From an uncultured Eubacterium sp. (lineage in GTDB: Bacteria; Bacillota; Clostridia; Lachnospirales; Lachnospiraceae): a stretch of 48,924 nt of DNA. The notes below the pieces were generated by a model, which worked only from the letters and a program-made list of their open reading frames with translations, had not been told where the DNA came from and ran no database searches. The stretch's first letter is position 1, and every line of letters starts with the position of its first letter. Shown here piece after piece: positions 1,216 through 30,866 of this stretch. The translations under genes were made by a program, and so were the position numbers. The stretch spans positions 1 to 48,924 of the forward strand of contig CAMDYG010000020.1 in assembly GCA_945910225.1 (NCBI GenBank), read 5' to 3'.

Positions 1216-2616
1216 ATGAACGAGAATCGTAATTCATTCAAGGGCTCTATAGGGTTTGTCCTGGCAGCTGCGGGTAGTGCTGTAGGACTTGGTAACATAT
1301 GGAGATTTCCTTATCTGGCAGCTAAAGATGGAGGAGGATTATTCCTTGTTATATACATTGTTTTAGCATTAACATTTGGATTTACACTACTCACAACAGA
1401 AATTGCTATTGGCAGAAAGACCAAGCAGAGTCCGCTTACAGCATATGGAGCACTTAAGAAGAAGTGGAAACCATTAGGTATCATTGCATGTATTGTACCT
1501 GTAATGATATTTCCATATTATGTAACAATAGGTGGATGGGTACTTAAGTATCTTTTGGTATATATTACAGGTAATGGTCATGCAGCAGCACAAGACGGAT
1601 ATTTTTCCGGATTTATTGGAGAAACTGCAGAACCAATCATAATGATGCTTATATTTACAATAATAGTGGTGTTTATTATATTCAGAGGTGTTAATAATGG
1701 TATTGAATCTTCGTCTAAGATTATTATGCCATTACTTATAATTCTTGTTCTTGGTGTATCAGTATACTCTCTTACAATTAAGTATACAGATATTGATGGA
1801 ACAACCAGAACAGGTTTACAGGGATTAGGTGCTTATGTAATACCTAATATGAAGGGAATTACTGTTAAACAGTTCTGTACAGTTCTTATGGATGCTATGG
1901 GACAGCTTTTCTACAGCTTAAGTGTTGCTATGGGTATTATGATTGCATATGGCTCATATGTAAGCGACGATGCTAATCTTGGAAAGTCAATTAATCAGAT
2001 TGAGATATTTGATACTATAGTTGCCTTCCTTGCAGGTGTAATGATTATCCCTGCTGTATTTGTATTTATGGGAAGAGATGGAATGACTGCATCAGGTCCG
2101 AGCCTTATGTTTGTATCACTTCCTAAGGTATTTGATTCTATGGGATTTGCTGGTAATGTAATAGGAACAATATTCTTTGCAATGGTTTTCTTTGCAGCTC
2201 TTACTAGTGCTGTTTCTATTATGGAGGCAATTGTATCAAGCTTTATGGATGAATTTCATGTTACAAGAAACAAGGCTACAGCTATAGAAACAGTAATTGG
2301 AATTTTAGTAGCTGTTATTGTATGCCTTGGATATAACAAGTTATTATTTGACATTAAACTTCCTAATGGTGTACATGCACAGATACTTGATATTATGGAT
2401 TATATAAGTAATAATGTGCTTATGCCTATTGTATCAATTGGAACATGTATTCTTATTGGCTGGATACTTAAGCCGCAGACAGTAATAGATGAAGTTGAAA
2501 AGAATGGCGAAAAGATGGGAAGAAGAAAGTTATATATTGTAATGGTTAAATGGATAACTCCAATTCTTTTATTCCTCTTATTGCTTAAGTCATTAGGAAT
2601 ACTTACAATTATTTAA
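1216..2616 (+). CDS. Neurotransmitter:sodium symporter (NSS/SNF) family transporter
   Basis: This is a sodium-coupled amino-acid or amine importer of the LeuT fold. The NSS signature is at the N-terminus: GFVLAAAGSAVGLGNIWRFP, then DGGGLFLVIY and EIAIGRK. About 11-12 hydrophobic segments follow, ending near SLGILTII. At 466 residues it is the usual length of a prokaryotic NSS protein. The frame is open from 1153, but the start at 1216 (MNENRNSF) fits better: AGGGAAGG lies 7 bases upstream and the extra 21 residues are not part of the family. The substrate cannot be read from sequence; tyrosine, tryptophan or small neutral amino acids are typical. It seems to stand alone after the carB terminator. 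Confidence 0.93.
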   Translation: MNENRNSFKGSIGFVLAAAGSAVGLGNIWRFPYLAAKDGGGLFLVIYIVLALTFGFTLLTTEIAIGRKTKQSPLTAYGALKKKWKPLGIIACIVPVMIFPYYVTIGGWVLKYLLVYITGNGHAAAQDGYFSGFIGETAEPIIMMLIFTIIVVFIIFRGVNNGIESSSKIIMPLLIILVLGVSVYSLTIKYTDIDGTTRTGLQGLGAYVIPNMKGITVKQFCTVLMDAMGQLFYSLSVAMGIMIAYGSYVSDDANLGKSINQIEIFDTIVAFLAGVMIIPAVFVFMGRDGMTASGPSLMFVSLPKVFDSMGFAGNVIGTIFFAMVFFAALTSAVSIMEAIVSSFMDEFHVTRNKATAIETVIGILVAVIVCLGYNKLLFDIKLPNGVHAQILDIMDYISNNVLMPIVSIGTCILIGWILKPQTVIDEVEKNGEKMGRRKLYIVMVKWITPILLFLLLLKSLGILTII

Positions 2617-2658
2617 AGACACAGAATATAAAGTGATATATCTGTAAGAGGTTAATAT

Positions 2659-3543
2659 ATGATAAGGAAAAAATGCTGTTTAGTGGCTGGATTATCTCTC
2701 ATTATATCGTTGATGACTGCGGGATGCAGCAATATGGTTAAGAATCCTATGCAATATATAATGGATGAGGATGAGACCAGACAGGGAGATGATGTAACAA
2801 AAGAATCTGAAAGCTCAGATGATAAGGAGCAGAAAGAAACATCAGAAGAACAGACAACTAAAGAAGTATGCATACTTGGTACAGATAAAAGAACCGACTA
2901 TTCTTCTAAAGCAATGGTGTCAATAGCACAGGAGATTAATGAGAAACTCGAAGATAATACGGTTCAAGGAGTTATTCTGCTTCAGGATAAGAATTATATT
3001 GAAGATATATCATATTTCCTTTCACTTACAGTAAAGGATGATAAGCCTCTGATAATTATACCCCGTGATTATGAGGGGGATGAACCTGTAGAATATGTTA
3101 ATCAGGCTAAGGCGTATATAACTGATAATGAAGCGGATGTTGTATTACCAGAAGATGTTATACTTAACCATAATACATCAGTTTATTATGATATTTCGGA
3201 CGCTAAGGATCTGCCGGATGTTACAATTATATATGATTATGCAGGCAGTACAGGAGATGATTACATACGTGCAATCAATAAGTGTGATGGTGCTGTTATT
3301 GTATCATTTTCAGATACAGCAGAGGTATCATATGCATATGGGGAATACCTGTCTGATAAAAATATTATACCTACAGTGATAGCATGTGGAATATCTGATA
3401 TAGGTTCAATAGAAGAAAAAGAGTATAATTCAGACGTCTCTTATACTAATATCAGCCCATCTAAAGCAAGATTGCTGCTAATGCTTTCTCTTAATTCAAA
3501 GGAAAGTCAGGAACAAAGAAATAAAGCATTTCAACAGAATTAA
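2659..3543 (+). CDS. Lipoprotein with a degenerate L-asparaginase-like fold
   Basis: The protein begins with a lipoprotein signal (MIRKK, hydrophobic stretch, LMTAGC; lipidated Cys23), then an acidic low-complexity linker of about 40 residues. The rest follows type I/II asparaginases segment by segment: GVILLQDKNYIEDISYFLSL stands where enzymes have GxVxTHGTDTMEETAYFLSL, followed by the VKDDKP block. VTIIYDYAGSTGDDYI matches the family's VxIxYxYPGxDxxxI, and the AVIVSFS...IIPTVIACG stretch follows. Both catalytic threonine motifs are replaced: TGGTI by GTDKR, and HGTDT by QDKNY. Catalysis therefore looks lost. I infer a surface binding or structural role, which is unproven. AAGAGG precedes the ATG by 7 bases. 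The next gene follows by about 70 bases. Confidence 0.7.
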   Translation: MIRKKCCLVAGLSLIISLMTAGCSNMVKNPMQYIMDEDETRQGDDVTKESESSDDKEQKETSEEQTTKEVCILGTDKRTDYSSKAMVSIAQEINEKLEDNTVQGVILLQDKNYIEDISYFLSLTVKDDKPLIIIPRDYEGDEPVEYVNQAKAYITDNEADVVLPEDVILNHNTSVYYDISDAKDLPDVTIIYDYAGSTGDDYIRAINKCDGAVIVSFSDTAEVSYAYGEYLSDKNIIPTVIACGISDIGSIEEKEYNSDVSYTNISPSKARLLLMLSLNSKESQEQRNKAFQQN

Positions 3544-25312: not shown

Positions 25313-26800
25313 ATGAAGATAGGATTTGATAACGACAAATATTTAAAAATGCAGTCTGAGCATATTAAGGAGAGAATTGCCAAGTTTGACAATAAGTTAT
25401 ATCTTGAATTTGGCGGAAAGCTGTTTGATGATTACCATGCATCAAGAGTCCTTCCAGGTTTTAAACCGGATTCAAAGCTTCAGATGCTTTTACAGTTAAA
25501 GGATCAGGCGGAGGTTGTTATAGCAATCAGCGCAGAAGATATTGCAAGCAACAAGATTCGTGGTGATTATGGTATTACTTATGATCAGGAAGTGTTAAGA
25601 CTTATTGACGCATTTACAGAATACGGACTTTTCGTTGGAAGTGTATGCATTACCAAGTACTTCCAGCAGCCGGATGTTGATAATTTCATTAAGGTGTTAG
25701 ATGCACATGGAATTAAGAATTTCAAGCATTACAAGATTGCAGGATATCCTAATGATGTTGCCAAGATTGTAAGTGACGAAGGATACGGAAAGAATGAATT
25801 TATTGAGACAAGCAGACCGCTTGTAGTTGTTACTGCACCGGGACCGGGAAGCGGAAAGATGGCTACATGTCTTTCACAGCTTTACCATGAATATAAGCAT
25901 GGCGTTAAGGCAGGATATGCCAAGTTTGAGACATTCCCAATCTGGAATATTCCACTTAAGCACCCTGTTAATCTTGCTTATGAGGCAGCTACAGCAGACC
26001 TTAACGATGTTAATATGATTGATCCTTTCCATTTGGAAGCATACGGAAAGACAACAGTTAATTATAACAGAGATATTGAGATATTCCCTGTACTTAATGC
26101 AATGTTTGAACTTATTGCCGGCGAGAGTCCATACAAGTCACCAACAGACATGGGCGTTAATATGGCTGGTAACTGTATTGTTGATGATGAGGCATGCCGT
26201 TATGCTTCTAATATGGAGATTATCAGAAGATACTACAAATGTTTATGTGACCAGAAGAAAACTGGTGTTAATAGTCAGGAAATATACAAGATTGAGCTTT
26301 TAATGAATCAGGCTGGAATAACAACTTCTTCAAGACCAGTTGTTAATGCTGCACTTGAAAAGTCAGCAAAGAACGGCGACAAGCCGGCAGTTGCAATTGA
26401 GTTGGAAGATGGAACAGTTGTTACTGGAAAGACAGGGGATCTGTTAGGTGCTGCGTCATCAGCATTGCTTAATGCATTAAAGCAGCTTGCAGGAATTGAG
26501 GATTCAGTTGATCTGTTATCACCGGAGTCAATCAGTCCTATCCAGACATTAAAGACTAATTATCTTGGCAGCAGGAATCCAAGACTTCATACCGATGAAA
26601 TCCTTATTGCACTTTCATCATCAGTTGTAGCCAATCCTTTAGCTGATAAGGCATTAAAGCAGATTCCTAAGCTTTATGGCTGTGATGTCCATTCAACAGT
26701 TATTCTTTCATCGGTTGATAAGGATACATTTAAGAGGCTCGGCATGAATCTTACATGTGAGCCAGCTTATGAGGAAGAGAAAAGATTTCATAAAAACTAA
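25313..26800 (+). CDS. DUF1846 family protein (UPF0371)
   Basis: A 495-residue protein matching DUF1846 from end to end: MKIGFDNDKYLKMQSEHIKE, LPGFKPDSKLQMLLQL, a P-loop-like VTAPGPGSGKMATCLSQLYHE, FPIWNIPLKHPVNLAYEAAT, and the C-terminal NYLGSRNPRLHTDE. The family is common in Firmicutes gut and oral bacteria and structurally known, but its function is not settled. Starts with AAAGGAAT upstream and ends at a strong terminator. It stands 35 bases after the amidohydrolase remnant and seems intact. Confidence 0.93.
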   Translation: MKIGFDNDKYLKMQSEHIKERIAKFDNKLYLEFGGKLFDDYHASRVLPGFKPDSKLQMLLQLKDQAEVVIAISAEDIASNKIRGDYGITYDQEVLRLIDAFTEYGLFVGSVCITKYFQQPDVDNFIKVLDAHGIKNFKHYKIAGYPNDVAKIVSDEGYGKNEFIETSRPLVVVTAPGPGSGKMATCLSQLYHEYKHGVKAGYAKFETFPIWNIPLKHPVNLAYEAATADLNDVNMIDPFHLEAYGKTTVNYNRDIEIFPVLNAMFELIAGESPYKSPTDMGVNMAGNCIVDDEACRYASNMEIIRRYYKCLCDQKKTGVNSQEIYKIELLMNQAGITTSSRPVVNAALEKSAKNGDKPAVAIELEDGTVVTGKTGDLLGAASSALLNALKQLAGIEDSVDLLSPESISPIQTLKTNYLGSRNPRLHTDEILIALSSSVVANPLADKALKQIPKLYGCDVHSTVILSSVDKDTFKRLGMNLTCEPAYEEEKRFHKN

Positions 26801-26818
26801 TACTTAGATTTAACTATA

Positions 26819-26869
26819 GTGTGTGAAAACAAGGCGTTTTAATTAAACATGTTTTCACACACTTTTTTT
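26819..26869 (+). terminator. Rho-independent terminator after the DUF1846 gene
   Basis: GTGTGTGAAAACA pairs perfectly with TGTTTTCACACAC, followed by seven T. Confidence 0.95.
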
Positions 26870-26908
26870 GTATATATTTGACGCACGACAAATAAAGGAG
26901 GCATGGCT

Positions 26909-27501
26909 ATGGATAATAAAGTGATATTAGAAAAGCAGGATCTGACATAGAGATAGAAGGTAATATATATAATACTTATCTGTGCTCTTCAGATGAGTTA
27001 AAGAAGCGTGGAGAGAGCAAAATGGCGCTGGATGATTATTATCGTGCTAATGCTTTGGAGAAGGAATCACATTATGATTTCTGTGTCCGCTGTGGCTGGA
27101 AAGATTATATAGATACTATGATTGCAGTAGATTATATTATACTTAACAGAGACAGACATGGAGCTAATATAGAAGTACTGAGGAATGCAAGAGCACATGC
27201 GCTGAGAATAGCACCATTATTTGACCATGGATTAACACTGATGTATTCATGTATGACAGATAAAGATGCAGAAGCATTTGATATATTAGAAGATAAGCGA
27301 TGCCAGAATTTTATAGGAACATATTCATGTTTTGATAATCTTAAGCTGATAAAGAAAAGTAAAAATGTATTTAGTGAAAGTCTGAAACCAGATGATAAAG
27401 AGTACATTTTTGATGGGTTGGAAAATGTATTATCAGATGTTTTTATTGAGAAAATCTGGAACATGATATATGAGAGGTATAAGATATATGAAAATCTTTG
27501 A
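26909..27501 (+). pseudogene. HipA-like kinase, truncated and frameshifted
   Basis: A GGAGG with good spacing starts an ORF that stops after 13 codons (TAG at 26948). One frame over, GSDIEIEGNIYNTYLCSSDE leads into an open frame to 27501. That part keeps kinase-like motifs of the HipA-C/CtkA group: the catalytic loop YIILNRDRHGANIEVL and the metal motif PLFDHGLTL. The N-terminal lobe, with the Lys that binds ATP, is missing. A complete protein of this kind has 250 or more residues before the catalytic loop, so both a frameshift and a large deletion are likely. Confidence 0.75.
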
Positions 27502-27968
27502 AATTATTGATGAAGAAAATAATATGTCAATTGGAGTGTTACAGTACTATGAAAAACAGAAAAACTGTATTATTGAATTGCAGGCAAACTTAGATGAGTG
27601 GACTGCGCCATTATTGTTCACTTCATATGTTAATAAGCATATATATACAATGCCAAGAGATATTAGTTTTATGTGGCAAACAGCTTAATGCTTTGCCGGA
27701 TTATGTAATTGAGAGAAAGAAAAGAAACATTATAGATTGTGTAACATTAGATAATAATGTTTTATTATGCTTTTTTGCAGATGATTCCACAAAGAAAATA
27801 GATTTGCATATGCTGGAATATGTTAAAGTAGTAGACAAGATAATTAAGAATAAGTCTTTGTATGAATCTGGAATGGTGGGAACAGATGGCTATTTTGCAA
27901 CATTTAATGATTCTATAGATATTCCGTCTGATATTCTTTATAAAGCAGGAGCAGTTGGGTACTGTTAA
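27488..27968 (+). pseudogene. Unrecognised small gene beside the HipA-like remnant, broken in the middle
   Basis: The ATG at 27488 overlaps the end of the kinase remnant. It reads MKIFEIIDEENNMSIGVLQY ... APLLFTSYVNKHIYTMPRDI and ends at 27688; another frame continues LNALPDYVIERKKRNIIDCV, LLCFFADDSTKKIDLHMLEY and on to 27968. Together they look like one protein with a lesion near 27670-27680. The second half, with its short strands and a closing IDIPSDILYKAGAV, faintly resembles DUF2442-type domains. The overlap suggests that the two genes formed a translationally coupled pair, perhaps a toxin-antitoxin-like unit. I do not recognise the family securely. Confidence 0.55.
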
Positions 27969-28033
27969 AGAAGAAGTACGGGGAAGTCTTTATTTAAAAG
28001 GCGAAGTTGTGAGCAAAAAATGGTAAAATCTTA

Positions 28034-28062
28034 TTGACACACATGCAGGCATTTGATATTAT
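28034..28062 (+). promoter_or_regulatory. Sigma-A promoter of the Mn riboswitch transcript
   Basis: TTGACA (28034-28039), a 17-base spacer, TATTAT (28057-28062), placed about 20 bases before the riboswitch. Confidence 0.8.
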
Positions 28063-28079
28063 TTATCAAGTAATTTAAT

Positions 28080-28180
28080 ATTCCATGAGGGAGTAGTTAG
28101 CGCGAAAGTGTGATTTGTCAACATTCTGATTATAATTAAAGAGTATAATCTGGCAAATCTTAAATAATGAGACTCATGTA
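28080..28180 (+). promoter_or_regulatory. yybP-ykoY (Mn2+) riboswitch aptamer
   Basis: The conserved yybP-ykoY features appear in order: GGGAGTAG (28089-28096), GTCAACAT (about 28117), CTGGCAAATCTT (about 28150) and AATGAGACTCATG (28167-28178). The closing helix P1 can form between CATGAG (28084-28089) and CTCATG (28173-28178). That same CTCATG is also the left arm of the terminator that follows, so P1 and terminator exclude each other: Mn2+ binding should favour P1 and read-through. The genes behind it are cation transporters including a GDT1-family Mn exporter, the classic target. Confidence 0.88.
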
Positions 28181-28240
28181 TATCAATTACACACCTGATA
28201 TAACATCAGATGTTAATTGATATACATGAGTTTTTTTTTA
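28172..28240 (+). terminator. Riboswitch-controlled terminator
   Basis: An 18-bp perfect stem (28172-28189 with 28214-28231), extended inward by CTGAT/ATCAG pairs, and followed by nine T. Its left arm overlaps the P1 helix of the riboswitch. Confidence 0.92.
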
Positions 28241-28311
28241 TCTGCTGGATTACTTGTAATGGCAGGAGTTTTTGCTGATGACACTTTGTGGATGGATAAA
28301 AGGAGAAAGAT

Positions 28312-29313
28312 ATGGAAAAATTAATTAACAATTCACCATTTGCTCTTGTACTTGTATTTCTTGTAATTGGTTTTGTACTGCTTATTAAAGGTGCGGACTT
28401 TTTCGTAGAAGGAAGTTCAAGTGTAGCAAAGAGACTTCATGTTCCGTCTATTATTATCGGACTTACAATTGTTGCAATGGGAACATCGCTGCCAGAAACA
28501 GCAGTTAGTGTATCGGCATCAATTACAGGAAACAATGAGCTTGCAGTAAGTAATGTAGTAGGTTCTAACATATTTAATCTGATGGTAGTCATTGGTGTGT
28601 GTGCAATGATTGCTACAGTAAATGTTGCAAAAGAAACAATAAACAGGGATATACCTCTTTCACTTATATGTGCAGGACTCCTGATGCTTTTAGGAATTCT
28701 CGGACTTGGTGATAAGTCTGGTATGACACTTGGGCATATTGATGGTGTAATATTCCTTTGCGTGTTTGCAGGATACATTATATACATGATTAAGATTGCG
28801 TTAAAGGCAAGTAAAGAAGGCAAGAAAGTAGAGATAGAAGGCGGTTCTGATGAAGATATCAAGTTGGTTTCAGTTCCTCTTAGTATTTTGTTTATTGTTG
28901 GAGGTGCCGCTGCGATTGCAGTTGGTGGAGACATTACTGTAGATGCTGCTTCAAGAATAGCAAGTGATCTTGGAATGAGCCAGACACTTATTGGACTTAC
29001 AATCGTTTCAATAGGAACATCACTTCCAGAACTTGTAACTTCAATAGTTGCAGCCAGAAAGAACGAAGTCGACATGGCACTTGGAAATGCAATTGGTTCA
29101 AATGTATTTAATATACTTATGGTACTTGGTATTGCATCAGCAATCAGTCCAATCAGCATAATTACTGAGAATATTATTGATCTGTGTGTGCTTATTGTAT
29201 TTACAATATGTGTATGGATATTTGCTGGAACAAAGAAGAAAATTGGAAGAATTGAAGGATTTACAATGGTTGCTCTTTACGCAATATATGCAGTTTATAT
29301 AATAATAAGATAA
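28312..29313 (+). CDS. CaCA-family cation/sodium antiporter (YrbG-like)
   Basis: An inner-membrane Na+/Ca2+-exchanger-type protein of 333 residues with two inverted halves of five segments each. Both alpha repeats are clear: GTSLPETAVSVSASITGNNE followed by VVGSNIFNL in the first half, and GTSLPELVTSIVAARKNEVD followed by AIGSNVFNILMVLG in the second. AAAGGAG lies 8 bases before the ATG. It is the first gene behind the Mn2+ riboswitch, so it is probably made when Mn is high. Mn2+ export, alone or alongside Ca2+, is therefore a reasonable inference beyond the family's default Ca2+ annotation. Confidence 0.92.
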   Translation: MEKLINNSPFALVLVFLVIGFVLLIKGADFFVEGSSSVAKRLHVPSIIIGLTIVAMGTSLPETAVSVSASITGNNELAVSNVVGSNIFNLMVVIGVCAMIATVNVAKETINRDIPLSLICAGLLMLLGILGLGDKSGMTLGHIDGVIFLCVFAGYIIYMIKIALKASKEGKKVEIEGGSDEDIKLVSVPLSILFIVGGAAAIAVGGDITVDAASRIASDLGMSQTLIGLTIVSIGTSLPELVTSIVAARKNEVDMALGNAIGSNVFNILMVLGIASAISPISIITENIIDLCVLIVFTICVWIFAGTKKKIGRIEGFTMVALYAIYAVYIIIR

Positions 29314-29329
29314 ATGAGGTAACATACAA

Positions 29330-30022
29330 ATGTTGTTATTTTTTAAAGTATTTTTTACTGAATTCATAGCTGAGATGGGGGATAAAACACAGCTTATGCT
29401 TATTGCTCTCACATCAAAATACAAGTTAAGAGACATTATATTAGGAACTGCTGCAGCAATTCTTGTGCTTAACGGACTTGCTGTTTTAGCAGGCGGACTT
29501 GTCAGTGAATTTATTCCTGACTGGCTTATAAAGACTATTGCAGCACTCGCATTTCTTTATTTTGCTGCATCGACTATTGCAGGAGATGATGATGACGAAG
29601 AGGAAGGCAACGGCAAATCAAAGATTAAGTTTGCACCACTTGCTGTTTTCTGTACATTTTTCGTGGCAGAGCTTGGTGATAAGACACAGCTTACAGCCAT
29701 AACATTTGGCGCTAATGAAGGTATGGGTGCAGCACTTGTTGTATGGATTGGATGTTCACTCGGACTTTTTGCGGCAGACATTCTTGGCATGTTAGTCGGA
29801 TACCTGTTAAAGAGCAAGACTCCTGAAGGACTTCTTAATACTCTTGCATTCGTAATATTTGCAATATTCGGTATATACACACTTTATCAGGGACTTAAGC
29901 TTATAAGGGCATCTGTCTGTCCAATCCCTGTATGGCCAGTGCTTATAGCAGCAACAGTTATTTTTGCGGCTTTATGTCTCTGTCTATTTATAAGAAGAGA
30001 GAAGAAAGCGTATGAAAAATAA
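29330..30022 (+). CDS. GDT1/TMEM165 (UPF0016) family Mn2+ exporter
   Basis: A 230-residue protein with six or seven membrane segments in two homologous halves, each with the family motif E-x-G-D-K-T: FIAEMGDKTQLMLIAL (residues 15-20) and FVAELGDKTQLTAITF (114-119). An acidic loop (DDDDEEEGNGK) separates them. Bacterial members export Mn2+ and are often controlled by yybP-ykoY riboswitches, as here. The spacing of GAGGTAAC to the ATG is a little long. It follows the antiporter by 16 bases and overlaps the next gene by 11 bases. Confidence 0.93.
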   Translation: MLLFFKVFFTEFIAEMGDKTQLMLIALTSKYKLRDIILGTAAAILVLNGLAVLAGGLVSEFIPDWLIKTIAALAFLYFAASTIAGDDDDEEEGNGKSKIKFAPLAVFCTFFVAELGDKTQLTAITFGANEGMGAALVVWIGCSLGLFAADILGMLVGYLLKSKTPEGLLNTLAFVIFAIFGIYTLYQGLKLIRASVCPIPVWPVLIAATVIFAALCLCLFIRREKKAYEK

Positions 30023-30743
30023 AAAGAAATTACGGATAGCAGCTATAATTATTGCAGTATTTGTTGTATTGACGGGAAGTGTATTCATTTATCTTGGTAT
30101 TTACTACAAGGCTGAAAATGTAGATTTATATATGGCCAGTAACGACAGCGTAAATGTGACCAGGACGGATTATGGATATTTCTTTGATGGAAGCGGTACA
30201 GATAATGCAATTATATTCTATCCAGGTGCTAAAGTTGATGAAAAAGCGTATGCACCAGTGCTTTCAAAGCTGGCTAGTGAGGGAATTGACTGTTTTCTTG
30301 TGAGCATGCCTTTTCATATGGCAATATTTGATGTGGACAAGGCACAGGAAATTGTTTCCCAGTATGACTATAATAAATGGTACATTGCCGGACATTCAAT
30401 GGGTGGAGCTATGGCTGCCCAATTGGTATCACAGCTAAAGGATACACAGAACTTTGCAGGATTAATATTCTTTGCAGCATATACGGCAAAGGATATAAGT
30501 GATACACATATTCCTGTTTTATCGTTATATGGGGATAATGATGGTGTGCTTAATATGGATAAGGTTGAAAAGGGCAGAAAACTGGTTGATAGTGATAAAT
30601 ATTCTGAAGTAGTCATAAAGGGTGGCAATCATGCAGGGTTTGCAAGTTATGGCAGACAAAAAGGCGATAATGAAGCGACCATAACTAAGGAAGAACAGTG
30701 GAACCAGACAGTTTCGGCTGTTAAAGAATTTATAAACAGATAG
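30012..30743 (+). CDS. Membrane-anchored alpha/beta hydrolase
   Basis: An N-terminal membrane segment (residues about 9-31) anchors a 210-residue extracytoplasmic alpha/beta hydrolase. The nucleophile elbow is GHSMGGAMAAQ, the acid is probably the Asp in LYGDNDGVLNMD and the base His is in GGNHAGFASYG. The strand order and the oxyanion region FYPGAKVDEKAY fit the dienelactone-hydrolase-like "alpha/beta hydrolase family" group. Its start lies 11 bases inside the Mn exporter gene, so it is co-translated and should respond to the same riboswitch. The substrate is unknown; why it is coupled to Mn export is an open question. Confidence 0.85.
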   Translation: MKNKKKLRIAAIIIAVFVVLTGSVFIYLGIYYKAENVDLYMASNDSVNVTRTDYGYFFDGSGTDNAIIFYPGAKVDEKAYAPVLSKLASEGIDCFLVSMPFHMAIFDVDKAQEIVSQYDYNKWYIAGHSMGGAMAAQLVSQLKDTQNFAGLIFFAAYTAKDISDTHIPVLSLYGDNDGVLNMDKVEKGRKLVDSDKYSEVVIKGGNHAGFASYGRQKGDNEATITKEEQWNQTVSAVKEFINR

Positions 30744-30748
30744 ATAAA

Positions 30749-30788
30749 AATAATCGTATCATTTTTATATGGTGCGATTATTTTTTTT
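30749..30788 (+). terminator. Rho-independent terminator closing the riboswitch operon
   Basis: AATAATCGTATCAT pairs with ATGGTGCGATTATT (two G-T pairs), followed by a run of T. Confidence 0.9.
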
Positions 30789-30866
30789 GTAAATATGCCG
30801 ATATATTATAAAGAGAAGTCATGGAAGACTTTATCCAATACATTTACATTCAAGGAGGAATGAATT

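Follow-up and report, generated by a model that had tools for sequence, protein, structure and literature searches.

Within a 48,924-nucleotide contig of an uncultured Eubacterium sp. (the window, by which we mean this whole stretch of DNA), positions 28034-30743 hold a promoter-like site, a riboswitch aptamer, an intrinsic terminator, and three genes that run in the same direction, an arrangement that confirms the overall observation of a preliminary description made from the sequence. With a probability of roughly 0.88, we read this locus as a transcriptional ON switch of the yybP-ykoY Mn2+ class that controls export of excess Mn2+ by a CaCA-superfamily cation antiporter and a GDT1 protein, with an alpha/beta hydrolase as a passenger. 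The organism stands close to Lachnospira eligens, with 90.1% DNA identity to [Eubacterium] eligens ATCC 27750 over 67% of positions 28000-30800. Features lie on the forward (+) strand unless another strand is given, and published systems are described from excerpts of the cited reports.

An aptamer and a terminator that share a strand

The aptamer, a three-helix junction without P4, occupies 28083-28179 and was recognized by two covariance models, R1 and R2. The preliminary description had claimed the motifs of the aptamer to be present in order; L1, P2, L3, RAGAC, and P1.1 were all located. The 5' strand of P1.1, CAUGAG (28084-28089), pairs with CUCAUG (28173-28178), and both were read in the sequence (as CATGAG and CTCATG) exactly where they had been placed before. 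Between them lie the 5' side of L1, GGAGUA (28090-28095), helix P1.2 (GUUA/UAAU, 28096-28099/28165-28168, from fold and alignment), the P2 hairpin GCGC-GAAA-GUGU (28100-28111, from the fold), P3.1 (28113-28117/28154-28158), the 5' side of L3, UCAACAUUCU (28118-28127, identified by eye, with its partner UGG at 28151-28153), and P3.2 (28128-28134/28144-28150). The 3' side of L1, GAGA (28169-28172), runs directly into the P1.1 3' strand, and this segment (28169-28178) is common to the aptamer and the terminator. GGAGUA stands in 62/62 rows of the alignment of relatives (A4) and RAGAC in 60/62, the exceptions being two weak matches; the window has both. In many relatives P1.2 reads GCUU/AAGC, a compensatory exchange relative to the GUUA/UAAU of the window.

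The intrinsic terminator (28172-28240) consists of an 18-bp outer stem (28172-28189/28214-28231) enclosing an inner hairpin, with eight U residues (28232-28239) directly 3' of the stem, and folds at -29.8 kcal/mol (z -8.6, 200 shuffles). A stem of this length starting at the CTCATG region had been described earlier and was verified. Because the P1.1 3' strand CUCAUG lies inside the 5' arm of this stem, P1 and the terminator exclude each other. Terminators were detected in the window and in all five orthologous leaders; both arms carry changes in two of these (L035 and L036), the loop has diverged, and the overlap between aptamer and terminator is preserved in all six. A strict search for terminators that use the P1 3' strand, which misses short-loop terminators by design and on which we draw solely for the window leader and the five orthologous ones, was passed by 32/58 leaders of the wider survey described below, 53/232 swapped controls, and 22/1160 shuffled controls.

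Ahead of the aptamer lies a putative promoter (28034-28062) with TTGACA, a 17-nucleotide spacer, TATTAT, and a TG ahead of the -10 element. Our consensus scan returned 19 promoter-like sites against a shuffle mean of 16.6, only three of which, including this one, matched at 11/12 positions; TTGACA is conserved in all six leaders.

In the mechanism we propose, transcription would start about 7 nucleotides after 28062. At low Mn2+, CUCAUG would be taken up by the terminator and the transcript would stop near 28240. Binding of Mn2+ between L1 and L3 would dock the helix legs and hold P1.1 (CAUGAG/CUCAUG), so that the 5' arm of the terminator would be occupied and the polymerase would read into the antiporter and GDT1 genes; the two proteins would then export the excess Mn2+, and the hydrolase would be an added passenger on the transcript. 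The preliminary description had proposed the same mutual exclusion and a direct ON switch; the overlap at 28173-28178 is as claimed and persists in the five orthologs as well, and by analogy with known systems we infer the direction of the response, along with the start site, Mn2+ as the ligand, and Mn2+ export by both proteins. Lactococcus lactis yoaB likewise works by antitermination through P1.1, whose 3' segment otherwise belongs to the terminator (PMC11087558), although it differs in having a four-way junction with the L3 sequence UCA41AUUC (PMC6754395) and in controlling a P-type ATPase (PMC11477304).

Class membership and the ligand

We built R1 from ten leaders of relatives, leaving out the window leader and its orthologs; one of the ten is the leader of a second CaCA gene in the same genome as the window. 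R1 matched the window at 35.6 bits (E 4.8e-7), above the two held-out Escherichia coli leaders, alx (21.8 bits) and mntP (19.4 bits). R2 was built with the window group (the window and its five orthologs) among its sequences and gave 71.7 bits for the window. Among 18 aligned leaders, 94.2% of pair cells held standard pairs and 23/25 pairs showed changes on both sides, with 0/500 shuffles as good; in 62 rows, two of them weak matches (E 0.13 and E 0.41), the values were 92.6%, 24/25, and 0/500. Helices P1.1, P1.2, P2, and P3 are thus kept with covariation, as counted on model-fitted alignments, a procedure that favours structure. On this sequence evidence, the window aptamer is a sound member of the known yybP-ykoY Mn2+ class.

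Several results weigh against our reading of the locus. The Rfam model RF00080 gives no match to the window aptamer, even at E 10. R1 scores the window group at 30.5-39.6 bits, compared with 48.8-106.4 bits for the 12 other leaders of relatives, 10 of which are in the model. P4 is absent, as the predicted fold places no hairpin between P3 and P1.2; a three-way-junction member of yybP-ykoY is on record, so the missing helix does not exclude membership. In the model-fitted alignment, the L3 of the window group is out of register with that of most relatives, which is shorter, so the comparison of this loop rests on reading by eye. The folding energy of the aptamer is unexceptional (28070-28180, z -1.0, 30/200 shuffles as good), the best fold at 28178 is without P1 (-20.2 vs -19.8 kcal/mol with P1), and over the full-length leader the terminator form is favoured over the P1 form by about 17 kcal/mol (-53.3 vs -36.6 kcal/mol), so that the choice between them has to fall before synthesis of the 3' arm. 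In favour of the switch, when growing transcripts were folded computationally in ligand-free form, P1 was present at the seven lengths ending between 28184 and 28220, and the terminator formed from 28226 on.

A very stable hairpin that wins in silico at full length would also suit a plain attenuator, or the end of an upstream transcript, with the P1 pairing arising by chance. Against this stand the promoter, which separates the upstream open reading frame (ending at 27968) from the aptamer, and the overlap of aptamer and terminator, which is kept in the window and five orthologs although the terminator loop diverges. We consider this explanation extremely improbable and retain the Mn2+ switch.

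The preliminary description had looked to RF00080 for a decision, holding that a missing match would refute the riboswitch. The match is indeed missing; we do not hold the test valid, since the E. coli members are missed or underscored too. RF00080 found nothing on the alx leader at E 0.01 and gave mntP 41.6 bits, under its cut-off of 45, and exceeded its own cut-off in only 2/14 control genomes. A search at E 0.01 of 12 loci (three window-group leaders and nine other pattern-found aptamers) matched one of the nine, L027, at a sub-cut-off 30.3 bits, and at E 0.1 none of four Lachnospirales leaders was found (L051, L041, L102, and L092). The miss of the window is therefore uninformative and the cut-off does not define membership, and we rejected RF00080 as an arbiter because of this insensitivity. 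Since the model misses clear members in these bacteria, an absent match should not be taken as an absent switch. The RF00080 model has 177 positions, with its 3' part spread over a long loop region.

Read by eye, the window L3, UCAACAUUCU, differs by one base from that of E. coli mntP (UCAACAUACU/UGG), and this base is U or C among the orthologs. A28123 in the window L3 corresponds, again aligned by eye, to the Mn2+-sensing A48 of the Xanthomonas oryzae aptamer, which lies within ACA48UACU (PMC6754395). The mntP leader further resembles the window by eye in its L1 (GGGAGUAG), its L3 (UCAACAUNCU/UGG), RAGAC, and its P1-P2-P3 layout, and differs in having a P4 hairpin (by eye) and being described as a translational switch (PMC11647493), whereas the window has no P4 and uses a terminator.

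A different ligand was also considered: the aptamer could be a yybP variant that responds to some other divalent ion, with Ca2+ as the prime candidate in keeping with the calcium/sodium antiporter annotation of the first gene. Proteins of the GDT1 family move Ca2+ as well as Mn2+. One review regards it as probable that other divalent ions are sensed by some of the common yybP variants (PMC7266159). The mgtA leader of Streptococcus pneumoniae, a three-way-junction yybP-ykoY aptamer before a Mn2+/Ca2+ transporter, binds Ca2+ tighter than Mn2+ according to a second review, though Mn2+ activates its transcription more (PMC9495176); the window aptamer, too, is without P4. The mgtA leader differs in that its target is a P-type ATPase. 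Set against this are the window L3, which carries the Mn2+-sensing adenosine and matches mntP but for the one base, the presence of a long L3 of this form ahead of 6/11 stand-alone MntP genes found, and the failure to detect MntP, whose place the operon seems to have taken, in the window's own genome and the five others with the operon. Both the mntP-type L3 and the apparent displacement of MntP favour Mn2+ as the ligand, and we judge tuning to another ion to be unlikely.

A variant of L3 was seen in two aptamers that precede MntP-CaCA pairs, L037 (7078-7191, genome G019) and L038 (7131-7222, genome G014), where the loop reads CGACAUAAUGG and most others have GUCA. The GACA form also stands ahead of MntP in L094, L095, and L104. 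A shift in the metal site is possible.

CaCA and GDT1 as probable exporters and the apparent loss of MntP

The first gene (28312-29313) encodes a CaCA-superfamily cation antiporter of 333 amino acids that matches PF01699 in two stretches (4.8e-66) and TIGR00367 over its cut-off, with NCX_Mj as its best match among solved structures. The protein is YrbG-like and has two alpha repeats, with GTSLPE at 57 and 235. Among the CaCA homologues, the window included, E62 is present in 58/58 and E240 in 57/58; these acidic residues of the alpha repeats are presumably ion-binding. The second gene (29330-30022) encodes a GDT1/UPF0016 divalent cation:proton antiporter of 230 amino acids (PF01169, 1e-35), whose EMGDKT and ELGDKT fit the family motif E-x-G-D-K/R-T/S (PMC7380456). 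These two assignments and that of the third gene (PF12695, alpha/beta hydrolase) agree with those made earlier, as does the standing of GDT1 as an established target of the class.

We surveyed 61 genomes: the window's own, 21 others of the genus, and 39 of the family and order. R2 found 58 aptamers in 35 of them (E 0.01), counts that are likely lower bounds since this survey scored 65 candidates per genome under stricter filters, and the CaCA search returned 58 matches, the lowest at 27% identity, spread over 45 genomes. Of the 58 aptamers, 30 lead to a CaCA gene; seen from the antiporters, 25/58 CaCA genes have an aptamer at most 400 nucleotides upstream and five more have one a gene further up. 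The interposed gene encodes MntP in G014 and G019 and a membrane protein of about 400 amino acids in G004, G007, and G015. This last protein belongs by Pfam to the AI-2E family in L044 (G015), the only one run, and those of L046 (G007) and L049 (G004) look alike by eye.

The same aptamer class thus precedes several kinds of exporter genes. Among the 28 other aptamers, 11 precede MntP alone (by BLAST to E. coli MntP), eight precede P-type ATPases (by eye, one a fragment), and three have GDT1 as the first gene, with the remaining six leading to a CitMHS/ArsB-like permease, OadB, a TetR-like protein, two ABC transporters (one by Pfam, one by eye), and a protein without a Pfam match. Clear aptamers in L097, L093, L100, and L108 (E 1.6e-15 to 2.1e-10 per genome) stand before OadB, the CitMHS/ArsB-like permease, and the two ABC transporter genes, targets that are unexpected for Mn2+ export.

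The window's own genome carries two aptamers at E 0.01, each preceding a CaCA gene. The second (L051, 6199-6290; contig C10, 28198-28289, minus strand) has an L3 of the shorter type, and the antiporter behind it is 54% identical to that of the window. An R1 search of this genome missed the window leader, probably because only 150/998 first-look candidates were scored; R2 finds it.

The preliminary description had called CaCA a less usual target of the class. With 30/58 aptamers in related genomes preceding such genes, this was wrong on rarity in this group. Transport of Mn2+ by the antiporter, as it suggested, is a reasonable idea and not a novel one. In Bordetella, Mn induces a calcium:cation antiporter gene controlled by a yybP-ykoY riboswitch, the protein exports Mn, and calcium is without effect on expression, which demonstrates a riboswitch-controlled CaCA-superfamily Mn exporter experimentally (PMC8546581). 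The Bordetella system (BP3410) differs in belonging to another phylum, and the excerpts of that report do not mention GDT1 as a second gene (PMC8546581). In Vibrio vulnificus yrbG is reported to be under yybP-ykoY (PMC13274385), and a table of another report enters YRBG as an exporter in Bordetella (PMC9936198). By analogy, Mn2+ is the likely substrate of the window antiporter. Our literature search, with the founding papers of the class outside it, returned none on yybP in Lachnospiraceae and none on a Mn2+ riboswitch with a calcium antiporter. Many proteins annotated as calcium/sodium antiporters in gut Lachnospirales are encoded downstream of Mn2+ riboswitches and probably export Mn2+, which makes their naming a matter of annotation habit.

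We looked for signature residues marking riboswitch-linked CaCA proteins and rejected the idea, as no residue in the two alpha-repeat stretches fully separates the 30 riboswitch-linked from the 28 other homologues. Frequencies differed at position 80 (S in 24/30 vs 7/28) and position 97 (C in 22/30 vs 7/28), differences that kinship may explain. On a CaCA tree of 58 rows made by a quick method, the aptamer label was scattered, with 15 changes, nine of them forced by starred branches (shuffled mean 19.5, 14/500 shuffles as low); missed aptamers may account for part of this scatter.

The unit of aptamer, CaCA, and GDT1 recurs in five other genomes (G018, G002, G012, G009, and G013) with the order CaCA-GDT1 kept, and [Eubacterium] eligens ATCC 27750 has the same CaCA-GDT1 unit (EUBELI_RS12130-RS12125). 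The gene table of this strain, which is without RNA genes, shows no riboswitch entry. Across the 22 genus genomes, GDT1 occurs only in the six that carry the unit. MntP was detectable in 0/6 genomes with the CaCA-GDT1 pair, the window's own included, and in 13/16 others; two of the three remaining genomes, which also yielded no MntP, have a completeness of 59% and 72%. The six pair-linked CaCA genes form one supported group in the tree and so probably reflect one evolutionary event rather than six. Its neighbour in the tree is a group that contains the CaCA genes linked to MntP in G014 and G019, together with two that have no aptamer (G017 and G023). In G014 and in G019 a single aptamer leads the MntP-CaCA pair, and the CaCA-GDT1 pair may derive from an aptamer-MntP-CaCA operon like theirs.

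This distribution suggests that CaCA and GDT1 together took over from MntP, and the CaCA-GDT1 pair with the apparent loss of MntP is what is particular to this system. Most genomes of the L. eligens group carry a second riboswitch-controlled CaCA alongside the pair. The broader view that CaCA proteins are the main Mn2+-riboswitch-controlled exporters of the Lachnospirales, with CaCA and GDT1 replacing MntP in the L. eligens group, has in our estimation an even chance of being right. In one of the orthologous loci (L036, G013), a gene for a TrkH-type cation transporter (PF02386; open reading frame 1986-3320 nucleotides after the aptamer) stands behind the CaCA-GDT1 pair.

The hydrolase and the flanks of the locus

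The third gene (30012-30743) encodes an alpha/beta hydrolase (PF12695, 1.2e-53) with an N-terminal hydrophobic stretch seen by eye. Its reading frame overlaps that of GDT1 by 11 bases (30012-30022), as stated in the preliminary description, which had suggested a role for it in metal stress. If the hydrolase were a working third component of a manganese-stress operon, this would fit the overlap, through which it is probably co-transcribed with CaCA and GDT1, and the position of a likely end-of-operon terminator (30748-30788, by-eye sequence comparison), common to relatives, which lies behind it. In G018 and G002, however, the same terminator and a DUF6033-type gene stand directly behind GDT1, so that the hydrolase of the window separates GDT1 from a terminator shared with these genomes; G012, G009, and G013 have other sequence at this point. 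[Eubacterium] eligens ATCC 27750 likewise differs from the window in having no hydrolase between GDT1 and its DUF6033 gene. G002 carries a yybP-ykoY aptamer.

At E 0.001, a search of the five other genomes that carry the orthologous CaCA-GDT1 operon returned no hydrolase homologue. Relatives of the hydrolase occur at 44 loci in the species collection, and none of the 44 has CaCA, GDT1, MntP, or TerC nearby (within the retrieved flanks, at most 3.5 kb and less where a contig ended) or an aptamer at E 1. The proposed metal-stress role is thus unsupported, and we regard membership in a manganese-stress operon as very unlikely. The hydrolase instead looks like a lineage-specific insertion outside the conserved unit.

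On the upstream side, a search of window positions 26501-28100 for one E. eligens protein encoded upstream gave no homologue. Directly ahead of the promoter, an open reading frame at 27470-27688 overlaps one at 27594-27968 in another frame, and the latter had no Pfam match.

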